Positions 7,533 through 20,613 of a stretch of DNA of 39,612 nucleotides are shown in pieces. The notes under the pieces were generated by a model. The model did no database searches, was not told the DNA's origin, and saw nothing but the letters and a program-made list of their open reading frames with translations. Location of the stretch: the NCBI RefSeq assembly GCF_003247215.1, contig NZ_QKAP01000135.1, positions 1-39,612 on the forward strand. The letters are read 5' to 3'. The position numbers and the translations under genes are program-made. This stretch comes from Malonomonas rubra. GTDB lineage: Bacteria > Desulfobacterota > Desulfuromonadia > Desulfuromonadales > Geopsychrobacteraceae. Numbering within the stretch: the stretch's first letter is position 1; every line of letters starts with the position of its first letter.

Positions 7533-7895
7533 ATGTCACGTCTCTTCATAATCATGTTGTTCGTCCTCGCCATGATCCTTACATCCGAAACGCAGGGCAT
7601 TGCAAAAAAAGGCGGCGGTAGTGGTCATTCAGGGAGTGGGAGCAACCATTCGAAACATTCTGACGACCACCACAACCTTTTTGATGACGATGACCACCCT
7701 AAAAGCAGTGGCTACCATAAAAAGAGGGGGGAATTGAAACTGGAATTCGATGATGAAGGCCATCACCATCATGGCAATGGCCTGTTCAATCACCATCACG
7801 GTGACGGTGACGATGATCATCGCCATGGGGAAATTGAGCCTACTCGCCACGGAGGTGGTGAAATAGAAATTCACCGCAGCAGCGGACATAACTAA
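7533..7895 (+). CDS. Small exported His/Asp-rich protein
   Basis: 120 residues. An N-terminal hydrophobic stretch (about 1-24, ending near TQGIA) looks like a signal peptide. The mature part is low-complexity and dominated by His, Asp, Gly and Ser, with clusters such as DDHH, HHHHG and HHHGDGDDDHRH. No family is recognised. Composition suggests divalent metal binding (Zn, Ni, Cu or Co) in the periplasm, but this is inference only. GAGGAGGTC lies just before the ATG, giving a strong ribosome-binding site. It lies between mscS and a GYD-domain gene, and no transporter is adjacent to indicate the metal. Confidence 0.7.
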   Translation: MSRLFIIMLFVLAMILTSETQGIAKKGGGSGHSGSGSNHSKHSDDHHNLFDDDDHPKSSGYHKKRGELKLEFDDEGHHHHGNGLFNHHHGDGDDDHRHGEIEPTRHGGGEIEIHRSSGHN

Positions 7896-7970: not shown

Positions 7971-8264
7971 ATGGCTATCTTCTTAATGTTCGGCAGGTAT
8001 ACATCCGAGGCGGCAAAAGACATCAGTCTGGACAGGACGGTCAAAGCCCGTGAATTGATTATGAAGAACGAAGGGAAAATAATATCCATGTTTGCCGTCA
8101 TGGGCGAGCACGATCTGGTTTTCACCATCGACTTTCCCGAGGCGGCCATGGCCATGGCCGCCTCGGCCGCATTGTATAAGTTGACCGGAATCCATTTTAC
8201 AACTTCCCCCGTGGTTGACGTAGGACAGTTCGATAAACTAATGGGAGAGGTTAAGGAAATATAA
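7971..8264 (+). CDS. GYD domain protein
   Basis: 97 residues matching the GYD family (PF08734), small ferredoxin-fold-like cytoplasmic proteins. The family pattern is visible as a first strand FLMFGRYT, a KARELIMKNEGKIISMFAVMGEHDLVFTIDFPEAAMAMAA core, and a C-terminal TTSPVVDVGQFDKLM. The role of the family is not established. A GAAGAAGGGAA stretch lies upstream of the ATG. No signal peptide is present. Confidence 0.85.
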   Translation: MAIFLMFGRYTSEAAKDISLDRTVKARELIMKNEGKIISMFAVMGEHDLVFTIDFPEAAMAMAASAALYKLTGIHFTTSPVVDVGQFDKLMGEVKEI

Positions 8265-8658
8265 ACTGGTACTTTAACGGGCATATCCACCTAGTCCGAT
8301 CCCTGCTTGGCGAGAATCTTTTTGCTATTTCCAGCAAGATTGTCTGGAAAGTCCGGATCAAAAGGATTCTCCCACTAAGTTACTGAAATCACAGCGACGC
8401 GAACGTGTAGTTTCCATGTTTCAAAATAGAGAAGTGAGGATTAAATTACGAGATTTGAGATGTAGAAACGAAGAAGCCTCGGCTAGGTCCGGAGCTTACT
8501 TGTGGCGGAATTGAGAGACAATTCAAACGACTAACCTTGAAAAGATCTCTCCAGTTCGCTTTGCTTTTTGCCGCACCGTTCGCATACACTGGATTAGCAG
8601 GCCATGCCGCACCTTTAGAGGAGTGGATGCCGTTACCGTTTTCCAGTAGGGGGTCATG
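8265..8658 (+). other. Intergenic stretch with repeated element and orphan signal-peptide frame
   Basis: About 390 bases with no convincing intact gene. It contains a 29-base element (8436-8464) that recurs before the intact rhodanese, and an open frame (8459-8659) described separately. I see no strong terminator. Confidence 0.6.
8436..8464 (+). repeat. 29-base upstream element, copy 1
   Basis: It matches 9214-9242 at 24 of 29 positions without gaps; both begin GAGGATTAA and share GATTT.AGAT.TA. One copy lies about 195 bases before the DUF411 gene, the other 20 bases before the rhodanese gene. It could be a shared promoter or operator, or a relic of local duplication. Confidence 0.5.
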
Positions 8659-8659
8659 A
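8459..8659 (+). pseudogene. Open frame encoding an orphan signal peptide, possible gene remnant
   Basis: The frame is open from 8459 and stops at 8657-8659, overlapping the first codons of the DUF411 gene. From a possible TTG at 8537 it reads as a 40-residue peptide starting LKRSLQFALLFAAPFAY, with a hydrophobic core and a GLAGHAAP cleavage-like site, then only about 15 further residues. No good ribosome-binding site precedes the TTG. It looks like the 5' end of an exported protein that has lost its remainder, or a leader peptide translationally coupled to DUF411. I do not recognise a family. Confidence 0.35.
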
Positions 8660-9126
8660 TGTGGAGATTGATCACTACCCTGATCGTGGTGCTCTGTTCG
8701 ACAGTTCTTTTTACCTCGCAGATTCATGCAATCGAGAAAGGCCCGCAAACCAAGGTATACGTCTACCAGTCGCCTGGCTGAGGTTGCTGCGGTGGCTGGA
8801 TCAAGCATCTGGAAGAACGAGGCTTCGTGATCAAAAAGGAATCGGTGGTCAGGATTTCTGAGGTCAAGAACCGCTACAAAGTTCCGAAGATGCTCCGATC
8901 CTGCCATACGGCCATCGTTGATGGCTACGTCATTGAAGGGCACGTCCCTGCCGACGAGATTATCCGTTTGCTCATAGAGAAACCAGACATCATTGGGTTG
9001 AGTGTGCCCGGGATGCCCAGCGGGTCACCCGGCATGGACCAACCTGGCGTCGAGCCGGAACCGTACAGCGTTCTGTCCTTCGACAAGCAGGGCCGGACTC
9101 GGGTTTTTGCTACCTATCCGAAGTAG
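8659..9126 (+). CDS. DUF411 protein with in-frame UGA (candidate selenoprotein)
   Basis: Read through a single TGA at 8779-8781, this is a 155-residue exported DUF411 protein. A signal peptide ends near residue 24 (SQIHA). Then come VYVYQSP, G40, the UGA codon 41, GCCGGWIKHLEERGF, a conserved RYKVPKMLRSCHTAIVDGYVIEGHVPADEI block, and VPGMPSGSPGMD with FDKQGRTRVFA at the end. DUF411 proteins normally read SPTCGCC-x-KW here, so the UGA falls exactly on the first conserved Cys; both following Cys are kept. The family is often found near copper-resistance genes, suggesting thiol/metal chemistry in the periplasm. The rest of the frame shows no decay. The alternative is a recent nonsense mutation (TGC or TGT to TGA). 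AGGGGG lies five bases before the ATG at 8659; an adjacent ATG at 8656 is also in frame. Confidence 0.65.
8779..8811 (+). promoter_or_regulatory. UGA codon and possible bacterial SECIS hairpin
   Basis: After the TGA (8779-8781), bases 8790-8811 can form a small hairpin. The lower stem pairs 8790-8792 with 8809-8811 (one G-U), there is a 2x2 internal mismatch, and the upper stem pairs 8795-8797 with 8804-8806. The six-base apical loop begins GG. The loop starts 16 bases after the UGA, inside the usual 16-37 range, and has G in its first two positions as bacterial SECIS elements do. The stem is short and imperfect, so this is weak supporting evidence. Confidence 0.35.
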
Positions 9127-9261: not shown

Positions 9262-9570
9262 ATGGAAGCAAATGAATTGATGCAGCGTTTAAAATCGGAC
9301 AAACCGCCCACAGTTGTCGATGTGCGCAGCAAAATTGAGTTTCGTAGAGGACACATTCCTGGAGCGATTCACATGCCGATGTGGAAAATTCTCTTCCGGT
9401 TGGTCAATCTGCCGCAGGATAAAAATACCGAGGTGGTGCTGACTTGTGAACACGGGCCACGCGCACAGGTGGTGCGAGGATTATTGACAAAACGCGGCTA
9501 CATTAACCTGTTTCTCCTTGATGGACATATGGCAGGCTGGCGCAGAGCCGGGCTAAAAACAGACAAGTAA
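9262..9570 (+). CDS. Single-domain rhodanese
   Basis: 102 residues, a stand-alone rhodanese domain that would carry sulfane sulfur on a cysteine persulfide. The typical VVDVRSKIEFRRGHIPGAIHMP opening is at 18-39. The catalytic Cys62 lies in the six-residue loop CEHGPR (C-x-x-G-x-R), followed by VVRGLLTKRGY and a C-terminal LLDGHMAGWRRAG. GGAGGCAAC precedes the ATG. There is no signal peptide, so it is cytoplasmic. A decayed partial copy lies at 5776-5992. It sits 135 bases after the DUF411 gene, and a thiol/sulfur theme between the two is possible. Confidence 0.92.
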   Translation: MEANELMQRLKSDKPPTVVDVRSKIEFRRGHIPGAIHMPMWKILFRLVNLPQDKNTEVVLTCEHGPRAQVVRGLLTKRGYINLFLLDGHMAGWRRAGLKTDK

Positions 9571-10998: not shown

Positions 10999-11733
10999 GG
11001 GTCATGACACTTTAAGAGGTCAATCACGGATGATTTTGAGGATCAATTGGTAGAGATCCTGACCTCTATGATTGAACCTAAACTCACATTCTTTGAGATG
11101 CAAGATGAAGGTGCTGGGAGCCATGCCACGAAAGCGAACGAGTCTTGTTTTTGCGTAGCTCCAAAAACCTTCGATCCCGTTGATGTGAGTTCGACCTTTG
11201 TCAAATTCGTTCTGGTCGTGATCGATGCGCAGATGCTTTCCATAGGCAACGTCGACCAAGCTGTTATAGCCGCGCCAGCCGTCAGAGCAGATGACGCTTT
11301 TCAACTCGACTCTGCCCCGTATAACGGCTTGTAGCGTGATTTTGGAACAATTCGGAACGATCTCTGTGTAGACATGACCGTTCCGTTGAAAGATGCCAAA
11401 AACCATCGTTTTGCCATATGTGCCACGCCTCTTTTTCCTTTGATGCGGCGTGCACCAAAGAACGATTCGTCAACTTCGACCTCTCCCGAAAAGGGAGATT
11501 GTGTATCGCGATATTCAACCAGGCGCCGCCGGATCGCTTTCAAATAACGATTGATCGCATTACGGCTCAGACCTGTAAAACGAGCAATCTGAGAGGCGTC
11601 CAAATCGACAGAAAACAGCCTGACAATCCGACGAAATTGATGCTCAGGAATGAGTGAACGCCAAACATACTTGTTTTCATTGTCATGACAGCAGCTTAGC
11701 ACACCTTTGCGAGTGCTTAACGTGTCATGACCC
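10999..11733 (-). mobile_element. IS1595-family insertion sequence (short, IS1016-like size)
   Basis: A complete 735-base element. The terminal inverted repeats are 10999-11016 (GGGTCATGACACTTTAAG) and the complement of 11716-11733 (GGGTCATGACACGTTAAG), 17 of 18 matching. They are bounded by a perfect 8-bp duplication. The single transposase gene lies on the minus strand and is frameshifted. The undamaged duplication points to a fairly recent insertion about 220 bases upstream of the promoter of the large envelope operon. Confidence 0.92.
11020..11702 (-). pseudogene. IS1595-family transposase, frameshifted
   Basis: Two overlapping frames encode adjacent parts of one DDE-type transposase. 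The first (11702 down to about 11406) has an HTH-like region (SQIARFTGLSRNAINRYLK) and the first catalytic Asp in GEVEVDESFFG. The second (11406 down to 11020) begins near MVFGIFQRNGHVYTEIV, has the second Asp in ICSDGWRGY, and the terminal acidic segment in HINGIEGFWSYAKTR. Intact relatives run from GKRG directly into a K-T-x-VFGI segment, so a single-base change near 11400-11412, beside a GCAAAACG run, breaks the frame. Programmed frameshifting is not usual for this family, so a disabling mutation is more likely. Confidence 0.85.
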
Positions 11734-12004: not shown

Positions 12005-12098
12005 ACAATCTCCGAAAAGGCAAAACCGGAGTAATCCGGTGACGCAAAGCCACGGGTCCTTTGAATAAGGACAGCCGGGTTGCCGAAGAGGTGAGATA
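12005..12098 (+). ncRNA. GEMM-I cyclic dinucleotide riboswitch (c-di-GMP or cGAMP)
   Basis: The segment shows the conserved GEMM-I core in order: GGCAAAACCGG, a first hairpin closing with CCGGTGACGCAAAGCC, a second helix GGGTCC.../...GGACAGCC, and the closing GGGTTGCCGAAGAGG. The outer bases ATCTC near 12010 and GAGAT near 12093 can close a basal helix. By hand alignment to the Vibrio Vc2 aptamer, the ligand-contact position equivalent to G20 reads G, which would favour c-di-GMP. Geobacter GEMM-I variants that bind cGAMP usually have A there, and my alignment could be off by one. It lies between the candidate promoter and an intrinsic terminator. Confidence 0.88.
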
Positions 12099-12222: not shown

Positions 12223-15200
12223 ATGCAATTGCAAACGCACAACTTACATATCGAAGAAAAGCGAAATCGAATCCGGGGAGGATGGTTCGGACTGCTGCTT
12301 CTCGTCCTGTTGTTGGCCGTCGCCGGACCGGTACAAGCGGTAGATAAATTCTGCAGTGATGCCCCTTACTTCGGTGTGATTGATGGCAATGTCCATCCGG
12401 TTCCAAACCAGATCACAATCGATCGCGATTGTACTTTCCAGAATTTTCCAGAGTCCAATCCGCTGACAACGACGGTTAATTTCCAAACCAACGATCCCTC
12501 GATTTATCTGATCATTTTCAACAACGTCATTTTTACCGGGCACATGGCTTGCGCCAGTATCGATCACCGCATCTGGTTCTCCAACGGTTCCGATTATGGG
12601 TCGAGCAACAGTTGTCAGGATCTGTTCATTCCGGTGGAAAGCATTGCCAAGCAGGCACCCGCGGAAACGGCGGCTGTTGGTGTCCCCTTTACCTATACCC
12701 TGACGCTACCGTCCATGACCGAAGTCGGCGGGCCATCGTTGAACGACCTGCACACCGTCACCCTTTGGGATGATCTGACCGCCACAGGGGCAGCCCTGAC
12801 CTATGTCGATATAAACGCCTATTACAAGAATAGCGGCACCCCCGTGACGTTGGTGCCTGAAAACGACCCCGACGCCCTAGGCGGAATTTGGACTTCTAAG
12901 AACCTTTCGTACAAGCCGCTTCCCCTAATTCTGAAAGGGGAGCAGATTATCGTTGAGCTTACGGTTGTGCTGGATGATTCGCCGGTTAATACGGTGGGAA
13001 CCAGCTTTACCAACACTGCCAAGTGGTCCTTCGGCCGTCTGATCGAGGGGGAGTTTTATTCTCCTCTTCCCGGCGAGTGGGGTGTTTCCGAGCCGATGAC
13101 AATCGCCGCGCCAGAACTGGTGGTGACCAAAACAAGTGATGAAACAGCCCTAAATCTAGGTGTGCCGGTAACCTTTACGATCGAGGTCCAGAATGTCGGT
13201 GGCAGCGAGGCCTGGAACACCAGTGTTGTTGATCAGATTCCGGATGGCATGTGCGACCAGGATCCCACGGCGACTCTCTCCGCCCGGATTATCGCCGCCG
13301 ACGGTAGTCCAGTTGCCACTCTAGAACAGGGAATAGATTTCACCCTGAATTATGACGCCACCCCTGCGCCAACCTGCCCGCTGAGTTTGGATTTGAAATC
13401 AGCGAAGGCGGTGATCGGTCCCTCAGAGCGTTTGCTGATCAGTTATGAATCGCAACTGGATGGCGACACCACTGCCGACGGACTGACGTTGACAAATGTG
13501 GCCGGGGCGGTGAAGTGGTTCAGCGCCGATCCCAACGGGGGAACCAGCCCCAAGCCGATCAGTCGCACGCTTAGTGACGGGACACCGGGTGTTGACGATC
13601 ATCAGGACAGCCAGTCCGTGACCACGGCCCTGTCTGGCTACTATTTCCAGAAAACGGTAACCAACCTGACCAGTAACGTTAGTCCGGCAACTACCGCCGC
13701 TCCGGGTGACCAGTTACGTTATCGCCTGCGGGTCTTCAATGTCGATCAGACGCTCAATGACATCACCTTACTCGATCAACTCAACCCGACCTACTTTGAC
13801 TTGGGCAGTTTCTCGATGGTGACGTTACCGGCGGGCAGCGCCTTCAGTTTCGATCCCGTCACCGGAATGCTGCAAATCAATGGCGGTTCAGGAGATCTGA
13901 ATGTCGCGGTCGGTGAGGAATTGGTGATCGAGTTTGACGTTACTCTCAGATCATCTTTGAGTAACGGGACTTTGGTTGTTAATCAAGCCGAATTCACTGC
14001 CTTTGGGCCTCTGAATGCGATCAGCGACGATCCCTATTTCAACGGTATTGCCCCGCCTGGTGAACCGGCCGATCCGACCCGGGTGGAGATCCAGTCTCCC
14101 GGGCCGCTGGAAAAATCCAATGATCAGTCGACTGCGACCATCGGCGAGCAGTTCATCTACAGTATCACCGTTCCTGCAGAGCCGGTGGCGATTCCATTGT
14201 ACGACGTTCGGGTGATGGACAACCTGAGTCTGTCAACTGCCGATCTGCGTTTTATCAGTGCCGAGATCGCGGGTGGCAGCTGGGTTCCGAACAATGTCGG
14301 GAGTGACACAAATCTGATCATCGCAGACACCTCAACCGGGATTGATATCCCTGCTAACGGGCAGGCGATTATCAAGATCCGGGTGGAGCTTTTGAACAGC
14401 GTCACCAACCAGACTGGGTTGTCGTTCGCCAACAGCGCTAGCTACAGCTATAACCGCAGTAACGGCAACGAGACCACCCGCACCCTCGGTGGCGCTGGCA
14501 GCAGTCCTAACATGCGGATAGTTGAGCCGGCTTTGAGCGGCAGCAAGGCAGTCAGCTTTATTTTGCCGGCGGGCAAACCATCCACCGATCCGGCTGTAGT
14601 CGGTGATATTCTCGAATATCGGATCAGCATGACCAACAACGGCGATTCGACCGCTTTCGATGTCAGTGTGGTGGATACTCCGCCGGCTGAAGTGCTGCTG
14701 GTGCCGGGATCAGCGACGGCGCAACTCAATGGGGTCGGCATAAGCGGCTTTGTTGCCGAGCCCACCGAACTTGTCGGCGGCGGGCTGGTCTGGGGGCCAT
14801 TAAACGACGACGGCAGTTTGGACATTCCCGCTGGGCAGACTCTGGTACTGACCTATCAGGTGACCGTTTCATCGGTAGCCGGCACCGCTTTCAGCAACAG
14901 CGTGTATCTGGACTGGAGTTCCTTGGACGGGGACATTTCGGCGGAGCGGACCGGCGACGGATGCCCGACGGTCACGGCGCCCGACGACTACTGTTATGGC
15001 CCGGCGACGGTCAGCGTCAGTACTCTCGACAACACGACGATCATCAAAACGGTAGCGGACGATTCCTTTGCCGAAACTCCCGCCAGTAGCGGCGCTCCGA
15101 TAGTTCGGGTTGGTGACACCGTTACCTACGATCTGACCCTCAATCTGCAAGAATACATAACTCAGGATGTGGCGGTCGAAGATCAACTGCCAGTGGGGAT

Positions 15201-18200
15201 GCGTCTGGAAAGTTTCTCCATCATTGGCGGAAGCGGTTTTGGCTATACATTGACGAGCCAACCGGCTGCCGGGGCAACCGGCACCCTACGTTGGGAATTC
15301 GGGGATATCAACAACCCACCGAGTGCTGACGGGACGCCGCTTGATCCCTTGGTGATCCGTTATGTCACGCGGGTCATTACCGATGCCCCGCCGCTGGGAA
15401 TTGCTTACGACATCGATACCGCGCGTGACAATCAGGTGCAACTCTCCTATGCCGGTGGCGATCCGGTGCTATTTCCCAATCGTTTGACGGCTTCGGCGGA
15501 AATCAGTGTTCGCCAGCCACAGATGAGCGCAATCAGCAAGAGTGATCTCGGAACGGGTCGGGACGGTAGCGGCACGGCGGTCGATCCATATCGGGTCAAT
15601 ATCGCGACCGATGTCATGAACTTCCGGTTATCGTCCTGCAACGAGGGGCTGGCACCCGCCTATGGTGTGGTTTTGACTGACCAACTGGCACCCGAGTTTG
15701 ACGAAAGCGGTTTGATCAGCAGTCCACCGGTGGTGCGTATCGGCTCGACCACCTTGAGTGTCGGCACCGACTACAACCTCACCGCGCCGAATCGTGGGGG
15801 CGAATTGCGCATCGCCCTGCAGGACAGCGCTCCGGTCAATCCGGGTGAGTGTGTCATCGTCGATTACAACCTCGGTTTTCACACTGATCTGACAGTTTCT
15901 AAAACCTGGAATAACAGGGCTCGGTTAGCGGAATACCGCTCCTTGCCTCTTGCCGAGGCGGGTCGCCTCTATGCGGCAGGTAGTTCAGCTGATGTTTGGA
16001 TGACCAACTTGGTGAATGTCGAGCAATTGCTGAAATCCCTTGAGTCGGCACCGGAGGCGACCATCGGCGACGAGGTGACCTATCGCATCCGGGTGCCGGT
16101 TCTGCCGATGAACCGGGCGCTGGACGACCTGGTGATTACCGACAGCTTACCAGCCGCTCTGGAATATCTCTCTGCCAGTGCGATCGACAACAGTGGCGCG
16201 TCTGTAAGTCTGGTCGACAACAGCTCGGCCCCAGGCGATATTAGTCTGGGAATCGGGCAAATTCCGGCCGGCGAACAGGTGACCATCACCTTGCGGACCC
16301 GGGTCGTCAACAATGCCGCGGCCAACGCCGGAAACAGTATTATCAACACCGCTTCGTACACTTATGCGGGAATGCCGGTCGGTCTGGATACTGCCTCATC
16401 CAGCGGCCCTTTGACGATTGTCGAACCGACGTTGACCATCGCTAAGTCAGCAGTGAATCTCAGCAACCCCAGCAGCGCCCCTGTAATTGGCGATATCCTC
16501 CGTTACGATCTGGTGTTCATGGCTGCCGGCGGCGTGGTGGGAGATGCGTATTCTTCCGCCTTCGATCTGGCGATAGAAGACAGTCTGGGGGTTGGGCTCG
16601 CCTATCGAGGCGGGACTGTCGTTATCGACGGGGCCGGCAACACGATTGCTGACCCGACGGTGAGTGTTGATGCGGTTTCTACCGCCCAGACGCTCAACTG
16701 GAGTCTGGCTGATGCCACGGCGGATATCGATGTTTTGGAAGGAACTCAAGTGACTCTGTCCTACGAGGTGGAGGTACTTGGCAGCGTACTTCCGGGACAA
16801 ACACTCACCAATAGCGCCGTGGCTCGCTGGACTGGGCAGGACGGCGATAATCCCTTCGAACGTAGCGGAAGCGGCCTGCCGGAGGAGAATGATTATGTCA
16901 CTACGCCGGCGGAAATCAGCCTGACTGCGGCGCTGTCGGTTGTCCTTGGTAAATCGGTGGTTAATCTCACCACCCGCGAGGACCCGGGCGTGAACGCCAC
17001 GCCTGGAGACCGGCTGCGCTACACGCTGGTGCTCAGCAATCAGAGTCTGACGCCCTTGACCAACGGCGTGCTGATTGACGAATTATCCGCCCAGTTCGCA
17101 GCCGGCAGCTTGCAGCTGATCAGCGTACCGCCGGATGCCGATATCACTGCGACCAACCCTTCCGGCGGTTCGGCCGGAACCGGGATGGTTCATCTCGGAA
17201 ACCTGAGTTTGGCGGCGCAAGGTGAGGCTGGAGATTCCTTGACTCTGGTATTCGAGGCGACCCTCGCCCCGGTCATTCAAAGCGGGACTCAGGTGCTGAA
17301 CCGGGCGCAACTGAGTGGTGATAATCTGGCCACCGTGATCAGCAATCAAACAAGCACCCTGATCACTTCGGCTCCTGCCCTTGAGGTCTGGAAGACATCA
17401 CAGGATCTCACCGACGATCTCGCGGTGCTGATGGCCGGTGATACCCTGCGTTACACCATTACCGTCAAAAACGTCGGCACCGAGAATGCCGTCAACGTCT
17501 TGCTGCGGGACCAGATCCCGGCTAACACCCGTTATCTGAACGGCACGACGACCCTGAACGACAACCCGGTGGCGGACCCGGCTCCCGGTGTTTCGCCGCT
17601 ACGGGACGGACTTTTTCTCAATTCACCGGAGGACGCAACGGCCGGGGCGATGCGGGCTGACGCGACCAGCAACTCCGCAAATGTTGCTACGGTCAGTTTC
17701 GACGTGGTGATCAATGCCGATGTCATCGACGGTGCGGTTATTGTCAATCAGGGGTTCGTCGATTTTGCCGGAACCGGCAGCGGCTCGGCCCCGGAAGAAC
17801 CGTCCGACGATCCGGCTACCGCGGTTGCGGATGATCCAACCCGAGATGTAGTCGGCAACCTGCCGTTGATCGATGCGCACAAGACGGTGGATATTCTCGT
17901 AGACAACGGTTCGCTAGGGATCGTCGATCCGGGTGATCGGCTCCGTTATACGATAGTGGTCACCAATACTGCTGCGACGCCGGCCACCGCTGTGGTGCTC
18001 CGTGATGCAGTACCCGCGTTCACTACCTATGTGGACGATTCCGTGCAGTTGAACGGCCTTCCGGTAGGCCAGCCGGACCTCGGCGTCTCACCATTGACTG
18101 CCGGTATCGACCTGAGTTCCTCCGACCTGACACCGCCCCTGCCGAGTGCGGACGGCGGCATTCTGTCAGCCAACGGGACCGCCACGATCAGTTTCGACGT

Positions 18201-20613
18201 CGAGGTTCAGGCCGGAGTTGCTGAGGGCACCATCATCAGCAACCAGGGTTTTGTCAGTAGCGCCGAACAGGCCGATGAACCAACAGACGCCGACGGTATC
18301 GACAGCAACGGCGATCAGCCGACCCAGATCGTGGTGGGGGCGGCTCAACAGCTAAGTATCCTCAAGCAGGTTGCAGTGATTGACGGCGGTACGGCAGAGG
18401 CCGGCAGCCAGCTCGAATACCTGATTCGGGTGACCAATATCGGTAGCCTGCCGGCTACGCAGGTCTTAGTGACCGATGATCTGGCTCTAAAGATAGATGG
18501 TCTGCCTCCGCTCGCCGATTATGTGGACTATATCGCCAACTCCGCCCGTTTGAATGGCTCTGCCACCGGTGTGACCTTTATGGGGACACAGTTGACGGCC
18601 GACTATGCCGCCGAATATGGCGATTTGCCGGCGGGCGCTGATTTCGAGGTGCGCTTCCGGGTCAGGATCAAACCGACGGTGGCGCGGGGGACGACTCTTA
18701 CCAACAGTGCTCAGGTCACTTGGGACAACAATCCGCCTGTGAGCGCGGAGGTTTCCCTAGACGTGGGCGGGGCTCCGGAAAGTGCCGCCCTGAACGGGCG
18801 TGTCTGGCACGATGCCGACCTGAACCTGCTTGACGACGACGGCGAACGCCCTCTGGAGGGGTGGACCGTTGAGCTGTCCCGCGCTGGCCGCATGCTTGCT
18901 TCAGTGCTGACCAATGTCGATGGGGAGTATCGTTTCAGCGGCCTGCCCACCAACGAAACGACCGGCGAATTTTACCAGGTACGCTTTCTGGCGCGGGGAG
19001 CCGGGCCGGACACCGCTTCCTTGGGGGATGGCGACTCCCCCTTTACCAATGGCCCACAGCAGATCAGCGATATTACCGTTCCCGACGGTGCCAACCTGCA
19101 AAACCTGAATCTGCCGATTACGCCGAACGGTGTGATTTACGACTCGATCCGACGTGAGCCGATTGCCGGTGCCCAGGTGACCCTAATAAATGCGGTATCC
19201 GGAAACACTCTGCCGAGCACCTGTTTTGACGATCCCCGTCAGCAGGAACAGCTAACTGCTCTGGACGGTTATTACAAGTTCGCGCTTAACTTCGGTGATG
19301 CGGCCTGTCCGGCTGGTACCGATTATCTCATCGAGGTCGTGCCGCCACCAAGCGGTTACACGGGGATGCCTTCGCGGATCATTCCTCCGACCAGTGACGC
19401 CACAACGACAGCGTTTTCCGTTCCTGCTTGTCTCGGTAGTGCGGCTGATGCCGTACCGACCAGTGCCGACAGTTGCCAGGTGGTAGTCGACGCCGAAGTG
19501 CCGCTGCGGGAGGTTGCACCGCGTACCGCAGGGACCGCCTATCATTTGCATCTTAAGTTGGACAACAGTCTGGTTCCCGGGGATAGCCAGATCTTTAACA
19601 ACCCGATTCCGATCGATCCGGTGGCCGACGAGGCGGTAGCGATCACCAAGACTGCTGCTCGACTGACGGCCAGCCGGGGAGACCTGGTGCCCTACACTAT
19701 CCGGGTGAACAATGTTTTCGGGGTACCACTGACCGATGTGTCGTTGATCGATCGTTTCCCGGCTGGCTTCAAGTACGTGACGGGGTCCGCTCGGTTGGAC
19801 GCGGTGCCCGCAGAACCTCACTGGACCGGAAGAGAGTTGAGCTGGGAGAATCTGGATCTGCCGGTGGATGCCAGCCTCACCCTGCAACTGCTGTTGGTGG
19901 TGGGGGGCGGTGTTAGCGAAGGGGAGTACGTCAACCGGGCGCTGGTACGCAACAGTGTCAGCGGCGATCAGTACTCGGGCGAAGCGACCGCGACTGTGCG
20001 GATTGTCCCCGATCCAACCTTCGATTGCAGCGATGTTATTGGCAAGGTGTTCGATGACCGCAACCGGAACGGGCAGCAGGAATCGGGGGAAGACGGGCTG
20101 GCCGGGGTCCGGCTGGCGACGGCGCGTGGACTGCTCGTGACCACCGATCCCAACGGGCGTTTCCATATCACCTGTGCCCAAGTGCCGGATTTGGAGCGGG
20201 GCAGCAATTTCATTTTGAAGCTGGATGATCGCACCCTGCCGAGCGGCTTCCGTCTGACCACCGAGAACCCGCGGGTGCAGCGTGCCACTCGCGGCAAGAC
20301 ACTGCGCTTCAATTTCGGCGCGACCCTGCACCGGGTGGTGACCATCGATGTGGCCGACGGAGCCTTTGAGCCGGACAGTACCGAACTGCGTCCGCAGTGG
20401 CAACCCCGCATCGATCAGTTGCTGCAGGTTCTGAAGGAGGCGACTTCGGTGTTACGGCTTTCCTATCTGGCCGATATCGAAGCGGAGAGTCTGGTGAAAA
20501 AACGCCTCGCCATGCTGAAGCGGACCCTGACGGAACGTTGGGAACAGGGCGAGGGGAACTATCGTCTGGCGATTGAAAGCGAAGTGTTCTGGAGGCGCGG
20601 CAGCCCGCCTTAA
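12223..20613 (+). CDS. Giant secreted DUF11-repeat surface protein (2796 residues)
   Basis: An exported protein with a signal peptide (hydrophobic core at about 22-36, ending GPVQA). About thirteen consecutive DUF11 (conserved repeat/isopeptide-type Ig-like) modules begin near residues 139, 295, 472, 626, 769, 936, 1101, 1264, 1402, 1569, 1718, 1881 and 2043. Each starts with a K-S/T motif followed by GDxLxYxIxVxN. Then come an SdrD-B-like domain (about 2189), a carboxypeptidase-regulatory-like domain (about 2303), another DUF11 module (about 2471), a second SdrD-B-like domain with DRNRNGQQESGE (about 2603), and a C-terminal OmpA-like segment (about 2706-2796). No sortase motif is seen. Such proteins are typically cell-surface fibres or adhesins. 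It heads the riboswitch-controlled operon. The ribosome-binding site is weak (AGCGAAG). Confidence 0.88.
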   Translation: MQLQTHNLHIEEKRNRIRGGWFGLLLLVLLLAVAGPVQAVDKFCSDAPYFGVIDGNVHPVPNQITIDRDCTFQNFPESNPLTTTVNFQTNDPSIYLIIFNNVIFTGHMACASIDHRIWFSNGSDYGSSNSCQDLFIPVESIAKQAPAETAAVGVPFTYTLTLPSMTEVGGPSLNDLHTVTLWDDLTATGAALTYVDINAYYKNSGTPVTLVPENDPDALGGIWTSKNLSYKPLPLILKGEQIIVELTVVLDDSPVNTVGTSFTNTAKWSFGRLIEGEFYSPLPGEWGVSEPMTIAAPELVVTKTSDETALNLGVPVTFTIEVQNVGGSEAWNTSVVDQIPDGMCDQDPTATLSARIIAADGSPVATLEQGIDFTLNYDATPAPTCPLSLDLKSAKAVIGPSERLLISYESQLDGDTTADGLTLTNVAGAVKWFSADPNGGTSPKPISRTLSDGTPGVDDHQDSQSVTTALSGYYFQKTVTNLTSNVSPATTAAPGDQLRYRLRVFNVDQTLNDITLLDQLNPTYFDLGSFSMVTLPAGSAFSFDPVTGMLQINGGSGDLNVAVGEELVIEFDVTLRSSLSNGTLVVNQAEFTAFGPLNAISDDPYFNGIAPPGEPADPTRVEIQSPGPLEKSNDQSTATIGEQFIYSITVPAEPVAIPLYDVRVMDNLSLSTADLRFISAEIAGGSWVPNNVGSDTNLIIADTSTGIDIPANGQAIIKIRVELLNSVTNQTGLSFANSASYSYNRSNGNETTRTLGGAGSSPNMRIVEPALSGSKAVSFILPAGKPSTDPAVVGDILEYRISMTNNGDSTAFDVSVVDTPPAEVLLVPGSATAQLNGVGISGFVAEPTELVGGGLVWGPLNDDGSLDIPAGQTLVLTYQVTVSSVAGTAFSNSVYLDWSSLDGDISAERTGDGCPTVTAPDDYCYGPATVSVSTLDNTTIIKTVADDSFAETPASSGAPIVRVGDTVTYDLTLNLQEYITQDVAVEDQLPVGMRLESFSIIGGSGFGYTLTSQPAAGATGTLRWEFGDINNPPSADGTPLDPLVIRYVTRVITDAPPLGIAYDIDTARDNQVQLSYAGGDPVLFPNRLTASAEISVRQPQMSAISKSDLGTGRDGSGTAVDPYRVNIATDVMNFRLSSCNEGLAPAYGVVLTDQLAPEFDESGLISSPPVVRIGSTTLSVGTDYNLTAPNRGGELRIALQDSAPVNPGECVIVDYNLGFHTDLTVSKTWNNRARLAEYRSLPLAEAGRLYAAGSSADVWMTNLVNVEQLLKSLESAPEATIGDEVTYRIRVPVLPMNRALDDLVITDSLPAALEYLSASAIDNSGASVSLVDNSSAPGDISLGIGQIPAGEQVTITLRTRVVNNAAANAGNSIINTASYTYAGMPVGLDTASSSGPLTIVEPTLTIAKSAVNLSNPSSAPVIGDILRYDLVFMAAGGVVGDAYSSAFDLAIEDSLGVGLAYRGGTVVIDGAGNTIADPTVSVDAVSTAQTLNWSLADATADIDVLEGTQVTLSYEVEVLGSVLPGQTLTNSAVARWTGQDGDNPFERSGSGLPEENDYVTTPAEISLTAALSVVLGKSVVNLTTREDPGVNATPGDRLRYTLVLSNQSLTPLTNGVLIDELSAQFAAGSLQLISVPPDADITATNPSGGSAGTGMVHLGNLSLAAQGEAGDSLTLVFEATLAPVIQSGTQVLNRAQLSGDNLATVISNQTSTLITSAPALEVWKTSQDLTDDLAVLMAGDTLRYTITVKNVGTENAVNVLLRDQIPANTRYLNGTTTLNDNPVADPAPGVSPLRDGLFLNSPEDATAGAMRADATSNSANVATVSFDVVINADVIDGAVIVNQGFVDFAGTGSGSAPEEPSDDPATAVADDPTRDVVGNLPLIDAHKTVDILVDNGSLGIVDPGDRLRYTIVVTNTAATPATAVVLRDAVPAFTTYVDDSVQLNGLPVGQPDLGVSPLTAGIDLSSSDLTPPLPSADGGILSANGTATISFDVEVQAGVAEGTIISNQGFVSSAEQADEPTDADGIDSNGDQPTQIVVGAAQQLSILKQVAVIDGGTAEAGSQLEYLIRVTNIGSLPATQVLVTDDLALKIDGLPPLADYVDYIANSARLNGSATGVTFMGTQLTADYAAEYGDLPAGADFEVRFRVRIKPTVARGTTLTNSAQVTWDNNPPVSAEVSLDVGGAPESAALNGRVWHDADLNLLDDDGERPLEGWTVELSRAGRMLASVLTNVDGEYRFSGLPTNETTGEFYQVRFLARGAGPDTASLGDGDSPFTNGPQQISDITVPDGANLQNLNLPITPNGVIYDSIRREPIAGAQVTLINAVSGNTLPSTCFDDPRQQEQLTALDGYYKFALNFGDAACPAGTDYLIEVVPPPSGYTGMPSRIIPPTSDATTTAFSVPACLGSAADAVPTSADSCQVVVDAEVPLREVAPRTAGTAYHLHLKLDNSLVPGDSQIFNNPIPIDPVADEAVAITKTAARLTASRGDLVPYTIRVNNVFGVPLTDVSLIDRFPAGFKYVTGSARLDAVPAEPHWTGRELSWENLDLPVDASLTLQLLLVVGGGVSEGEYVNRALVRNSVSGDQYSGEATATVRIVPDPTFDCSDVIGKVFDDRNRNGQQESGEDGLAGVRLATARGLLVTTDPNGRFHITCAQVPDLERGSNFILKLDDRTLPSGFRLTTENPRVQRATRGKTLRFNFGATLHRVVTIDVADGAFEPDSTELRPQWQPRIDQLLQVLKEATSVLRLSYLADIEAESLVKKRLAMLKRTLTERWEQGEGNYRLAIESEVFWRRGSPP

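Follow-up and report, generated by a model that had tools for sequence, protein, structure and literature searches.

The stretch of DNA analysed here (the window, 39,612 nucleotides from Malonomonas rubra) contains a gene of the DUF411 family with a TGA triplet inside its reading frame, and the question is whether this TGA breaks the gene or is read as selenocysteine (Sec). The frame lies at 8656..9126 on the forward strand; its only internal stop is the TGA at 8779..8781, and when UGA is taken as Sec, the frame encodes 156 residues followed by a TAG stop. The TGA is codon 42 when counted from the ATG at 8656 and codon 41 when counted from the second ATG at 8659. The preliminary description of this DNA, which had reported a DUF411 frame broken only by a TGA at codon 41, matches this frame when the count starts at the second ATG. 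Mechanical ORF calling cuts the gene at the UGA and yields only fragments (8661-8861 and 8827-9126), which makes it easy to overlook Sec-type DUF411 genes or to take them for pseudogenes.

The read-through product matched the Pfam family DUF411 (PF04214) with 94.2 bits against a cut-off of 27, and its sequence matched CopG of P. aeruginosa (6wis) with an E value of 7.5e-32. The family identity can be taken further than in the preliminary description: DUF411 is CopG, for which a structure with its copper cluster has been solved. In the alignment with 6wis, the TGA takes the position of the first CxCC Cys, within the motif SPG-U-GCCGGW, which agrees with the earlier placement of the TGA at the first Cys of the family motif; the proposed Sec would thus occupy position 1 of CxCC, and the rest of the UxCC motif is Cys44-Cys45 (8785..8790, forward strand, as for all features of this gene). 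All the family blocks downstream of the TGA are intact, as had been described. Among them are Cys83-His84 in the SCHTA block (8902..8907) and the pair Met120-x6-Met127 (9013..9036), whose Met residues are the cluster ligands in the CopG literature (the motif as given in PMC8456105, section 27, and in the accessible part of PMC7558416). The Met pair and Cys44-Cys45 are present in the window protein, and its CxCC motif is complete only if the UGA is read as Sec and Sec is counted as the equivalent of Cys. The N-terminal hydrophobic stretch (8656..8730, its extent set by eye) is probably a signal peptide, with a helix at residues 6-21 in the structural model. That model, built by AlphaFold2 with Cys substituted for Sec, has a mean pLDDT of 88.7, and in Foldseek it matched 6wis with an E value of 1.8e-16, an rmsd of 1.6 and a TM score (target) of 0.92, which gives the CopG fold; the next matches were thioredoxins and glutaredoxins. 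Most likely, the window protein is an exported thioredoxin-fold member of the DUF411/CopG family. It shares with P. aeruginosa CopG (PF04214; PDB 6WIS, 6WJE) and R. capsulatus CutG the sequence family, the fold, the position of CxCC, Met-x6-Met, the SCH block and (probable) export, whereas in the window gene a UGA stands in place of the codon for the first CxCC Cys.

Whether the TGA is peculiar to this genome was answered by its relatives. The search of 277 genomes from the organism's own class found DUF411 at 14 places in 13 genomes. Exactly one in-frame TGA is present at 12 of the 14 places, and it is the same codon in 12/12, in the context PG-UGA-GCC in 11 of them and PG-UGA-SCC in L027; the remaining two places are Cys copies, both in genome G157. 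The possibility that the relatives would all carry TGC or TGT, raised in the preliminary description as what would speak against Sec, is therefore not what the class presents. At the level of the phylum, 3 of 395 genomes matched, namely the own genome and two marginal matches (E 8.0e-4 and 8.9e-4), and in the phage collection 2 of 50,697 records matched.

The degenerate pattern PG-UGA-GCC-x-GW was scanned over a collection of 84,980 species and gave 51 stretches. Among these, 24 are DUF411 genes whose frame stays open beyond the TGA until it reaches a normal stop or the contig runs out; the other 27 were set aside as chance matches with no DUF411 downstream. Eight of the 24 records are labelled Desulfuromonas, Desulfuromonadales or Deltaproteobacteria, one is an Acidobacteria MAG, one is a Syntrophobacter MAG, and 12 of the 14 others are labelled Acidimicrobiia, Ilumatobacter or Actinomycetes; L057 (labelled Gemmatimonadetes) and L077 (labelled Dehalococcoidia) group with Acidimicrobiia in the tree. 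Since the pattern demands TGA, the scan is uninformative on how frequent the TGA form is. A search free of this bias covered a sample of 296 genomes of the class to which G656, an Acidimicrobiaceae record, belongs, and its 20 places in 16 genomes comprise 17 intact TGA copies, one decayed TGA copy (L126), one Cys copy (L111) and one C-terminal remnant (L125). The two decayed sequences are second copies, L125 (genome G767) being the remnant and L126 (genome G910) a TGA copy carrying a deletion, and both genomes also hold an intact TGA copy; two TGA-type DUF411 copies are likewise present in each of G656 and G826. In total, 40 distinct TGA sequences from several phyla were collected, so that homologues with UGA at this Cys, for which the preliminary description proposed to look, occur both in the own class and outside its phylum. 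Among the match rows of the class, Acidimicrobiia-class and related genome searches, neither TAA nor TAG was found inside the DUF411 frame. In 22 aligned Sec forms, Cys83, His84, His96, Met120 and Met127 are invariant; Cys44, Cys45 and Trp48 are also invariant (22/22), which is no independent result because 21 of the 22 came from the pattern demanding these residues.

For a UGA to be translated into Sec, the relevant machinery should be present in the cell, and SelA, SelB and tRNA-Sec, which the preliminary description had suggested looking for, were all found in the own genome (3.13 Mb, 99.5% complete, 3.75% contamination). Its tRNA-Sec scores 71.1 bits and is called by ARAGORN as tRNA-SeC with anticodon tca, while selA (578.9 bits) and selB (364.2 bits) are neighbours on one contig; the two contigs that carry the machinery differ from that of the window. 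Among the genomes with TGA copies, SelB is above the curated cut-off in 35 of 39 (23/27 and 12/12 in two sets). No SelB above the cut-off was found in the other four, G134 (87% complete), G660, G662 and G663, of which G660 and G663 have a tRNA-Sec of more than 70 bits. A tRNA-Sec above the gathering score is present in 37 of 41 genomes (39 with the TGA form, to which G157 and G821 with the Cys form were added), where matches near 47-48 bits may be other tRNAs, because G000 has a second match at 47 bits. G826 carries its two TGA copies, SelB and tRNA-Sec together on a single contig exceeding 4.9 Mb, and this arrangement argues against assembly or binning errors. Both Cys genomes have a strong tRNA-Sec, and G821 has SelB as well; therefore, the Cys form in these two genomes is not due to a lost Sec system.

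These results bear directly on the two explanations that would deny Sec. The preliminary description took as its main alternative a nonsense mutation, that is, a decaying Cys-type DUF411 gene with an acquired stop. The standard code does read TGA as a stop, and decayed copies such as L125 and L126 do exist among relatives, each beside an intact copy in the same genome. However, in 40 distinct sequences from several phyla the interruption stands at this one codon and is never anything but TGA; beyond it, dN/dS is low (0.04-0.34 in ten close pairs), a sign of purifying selection, and the Sec machinery is in the genome. Because the same-codon TGA recurs in this way across the class and other phyla, the window TGA is not a chance nonsense mutation; for the family the comparison of relatives refutes this alternative, and we regard it as extremely improbable here. 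The other explanation is that the UGA is read through but, owing to reassignment or leaky decoding, gives a residue other than Sec, such as Cys or Trp. It draws on the fact that the inserted residue is deduced from sequence. Against it stand the placement of the UGA where relatives carry Cys, the occurrence of SelB in most TGA genomes, and, for the window ORFs, the mechanical reading in which ordinary stops including TGA terminate the frames, so that this explanation is also judged very unlikely. The UGA of the window gene is thus very likely decoded as Sec, and the gene very likely a real selenoprotein gene rather than a broken one, as far as sequence comparison can tell; the earlier proposal of a Sec form of DUF411 is borne out by the conservation of the TGA at one codon, the machinery in the genome and the recurrence in other phyla.

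As for the RNA element that may follow the UGA, the evidence differs between groups. The hairpin pointed out in the preliminary description (stem GCU/AGC, loop GGAUCA) is indeed present 16 nt after the window TGA, but as evidence for Sec it is no better than synonymous-codon shuffles. The generic bacterial SECIS scan was rejected as evidence in the same way, since hairpins satisfying its rules are equally good in such shuffles. The mean native energy compared with synonymous shuffles was -7.34 vs -7.70 in 11 Desulfuromonadia, -8.81 vs -10.42 in 13 Acidimicrobiia, -12.15 vs -9.33 in two other sequences (individually not significant) and -7.21 vs -8.51 in seven Cys forms, and RNAalifold over 26 sequences gave only -0.6 kcal/mol. 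Synonymous identity in the first 14 codons after the UGA is higher than in the rest for the 13 Acidimicrobiia-type sequences (difference 0.267, permutation p 0.00015); for the 11 Desulfuromonadia these codons have no such excess (p 0.74).

Over the 26 sequences, 91.7% of the cells are paired in a stem that joins nt 15-20 to nt 26-31 (counted from the UGA), and 16 cells are changed on both sides. None of 500 shuffles was as high, and sliding by 1-3 columns gave 51.3% at most, although related sequences can exceed such shuffles without any structure. Pair 15-31 varies mainly between two clades (C-G vs G-C). In three Acidimicrobiia loci (L047, L049 and L121) it is C-G or U-G, codon 11 being GCA and not CAA/CAG, and since all three form one tree branch, the change may be a single event. 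The complete set of six stem pairs is present in 25 of the 26 Acidimicrobiia-type Sec forms, in 6 of 14 other Sec forms and in 0 of 8 Cys forms (the whole Cys set of this comparison); in L111, the Cys form inside the Acidimicrobiia Sec clade, pair 15-31 is lost. The loop of those 25 Acidimicrobiia-type forms is CGGGU or CGUGU, located 20 nt after the UGA, in agreement with the published SECIS model as set out in the available part of PMC13188914. Taken together, the comparisons support a putative SECIS-like stem in Acidimicrobiia. In the window gene the six pairs also form (8796..8812), but the loop is CAAGC without the G expected from the published model, and the element is therefore only a candidate SECIS.

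The tree was built from 40 Sec rows and 11 Cys rows; the plasmid locus L109, which the motif had missed, is absent from it. On this tree the Sec/Cys label needs five changes, at least three of which are forced by well-supported branches, while support for the division into large groups is weak (60/89) and the branches of several Cys rows are long. L111 (genome G821, with SelB and tRNA-Sec present) sits within the Acidimicrobiia Sec clade with support 98/98, a position that suggests a Sec-to-Cys change.

What the Sec would do in this protein can be approached through CopG. According to the accessible parts of PMC7558416 and PMC8456105 (also PMC8424229 and PMC8872213), CopG proteins bind a tetranuclear copper cluster via CxCC and two adjacent Met, contribute to anaerobic copper resistance, and may, as has been proposed, oxidise Cu(I) to Cu(II) or hand copper on. 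In R. capsulatus, as described in section 27 of PMC8456105, altering the Cys or Met motifs of CutG did not clearly change CutO activity, and deletion of cutG left copper tolerance unaffected; the copper role of the DUF411/CopG family is therefore not settled. The reading that we prefer, with a probability of about 0.9, is that of an exported DUF411/CopG protein in which the UGA at codon 42 would be decoded by the cell's own SelA, SelB and tRNA-Sec, and the inserted Sec would replace the first CxCC Cys, which in CopG binds the copper cluster together with the two Met, the protein performing CopG-like copper work. Outside the cytoplasm, it would bind copper and interconvert Cu(I)/Cu(II) or hand the copper on, as proposed for CopG, and the selenolate would be both one cluster ligand and a redox residue. 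Since the protein matches CopG (6WIS) with its cluster-binding CxCC, Sec probably serves, by analogy, as a copper ligand or redox residue, and a copper role of the window protein is a likely inference. A broader picture, for which the odds seem to us about even, is that the Sec-CopG of several phyla holds a Cu4 cluster tuned for copper redox outside the cytoplasm, S and Se both serving as ligands and the encoded selenolate being one of the bridges, and that this form has spread across phyla and occasionally gone back to Cys.

The gene context of Sec and Cys forms was read as follows. Immediately around the window gene lie a small His-rich ORF (7533-7895, forward strand) with a hydrophobic start, HHHH runs and no Pfam family, which is possibly an exported metal-binding protein, a GYD-domain ORF (7971-8264) and a rhodanese ORF (9262-9570). 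The preliminary description had spoken of neighbouring gene debris, but these nearest ORFs look unbroken; the term suits better an ISXO2/IS1595-type transposase ORF on the reverse strand (11020-11406), which is probably partial, its family match starting from position 39. No copper-specific neighbour was found among the ORFs scanned around the window gene. Forty neighbouring ORFs of 17 Sec loci were scanned, and four of these loci have copper-type genes next to them: a CusB/HlyD-type gene at L073, an E1-E2 ATPase at L047, a MerR regulator and an E1-E2 ATPase at L082 (copper may be the metal of both ATPases) and a CopC-CopD fusion at L084. The ORFs scanned around the remaining 13 include nothing specific to copper; those of L049 are a regulator of the ArsR type and a methyltransferase. 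For the Cys type, nine plasmid records were taken out of 3,452 with a match and eight were read; copper or silver genes stand beside DUF411 in six of the seven annotated stretches (L104 and L107, without annotation, are outside the seven). The arrangement is silA-DUF411-silP in L108, multicopper oxidase or copper-binding genes accompany L109 and L110, SCO and PCu(A)C genes accompany L102, L103 and L105, and no copper or silver gene lies alongside L106.

It is against this context that a Sec protein of the same fold but without a copper cluster has to be weighed, which would be a thiol or peroxide oxidoreductase or would deal with another soft metal or metalloid (Hg, As, Ag). The thioredoxin-like fold, with thioredoxins and glutaredoxins next to CopG in Foldseek, is compatible with it, many Sec families are redox enzymes (section 7 of PMC13188914), and most of the scanned Sec loci have no copper-specific neighbours, L049 having the ArsR-type regulator and the methyltransferase. 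On the other hand, the invariance of Met120-x6-Met127 and Cys83-His84 in 22/22 Sec forms is as expected if the copper site is retained, and E1-E2 ATPase, CopC-CopD or CusB-like genes do stand beside L047, L082, L084 and L073, so that we consider a protein without the cluster rather unlikely.

Sec-CopG, the form with copper work preferred here, was also compared with known selenoproteins. With the bacterial UxC/UxxC selenoproteins in Table 1 of PMC13188914, a review of May 2026 which states 119 families or subfamilies, it shares the in-frame UGA at a redox or metal-binding Cys, the thioredoxin-type fold, the Cys homologues and the Sec machinery; it differs from them in its motif, UxCC, and in that DUF411/CopG is absent from the table. 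The SO_0444 family Cu/Zn efflux transporter and the CopZ-family (2Fe-2S) selenoproteins of the same table, compared by their table entries, are Sec forms that are also linked to copper by name, but they belong to folds and families other than DUF411/CopG. A weak match to the HUGP/GUXX-star fusion selenoprotein (NF045501) around the U motif (residues 30-70) reached 14 bits against a cut-off of 325, and membership was rejected. Table 1 of PMC13188914 has no DUF411 or CopG entry and the main text does not contain "CopG"; no selenoprotein model in NCBIfam 20 matched the window protein, and DUF411 was not found in the available portions of the deep-Sep paper (PMC12013277) or of the 2022 review (PMC9312934). 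The earlier remark that DUF411 is not known as a described selenoprotein family accords with this. In the literature searched there was no paper pairing "DUF411" with "selenoprotein" and no Sec form of CopG, with an earlier mention possible in Deng et al. 2026 or in reference 64 of PMC13188914. Seemingly, Sec-CopG is a real and previously unreported selenoprotein family, a Sec variant of a known copper protein family. It would add to the selenoproteome a family absent from the May 2026 table and tie selenium to copper handling, with Sec placed at the copper-cluster Cys of CopG; the Sec and Cys forms, including the Cys form within the Acidimicrobiia Sec clade, offer a ready comparison of the effect of selenium at a multi-copper site.

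The promoter and terminator scan gave 4 and 1 sites, compared with shuffle means of 3.1 and 3.0. Elsewhere in the window, a c-di-GMP-I riboswitch aptamer (12010-12088, forward strand, 73.2 bits) lies just upstream of an ORF at 12223-20613 on the same strand, which encodes 2796 residues with several DUF11 and SdrD-B-like domains and is followed by more large ORFs with an OmpA domain and TPR repeats; the locus from 12010 onwards perhaps encodes surface proteins under c-di-GMP control.
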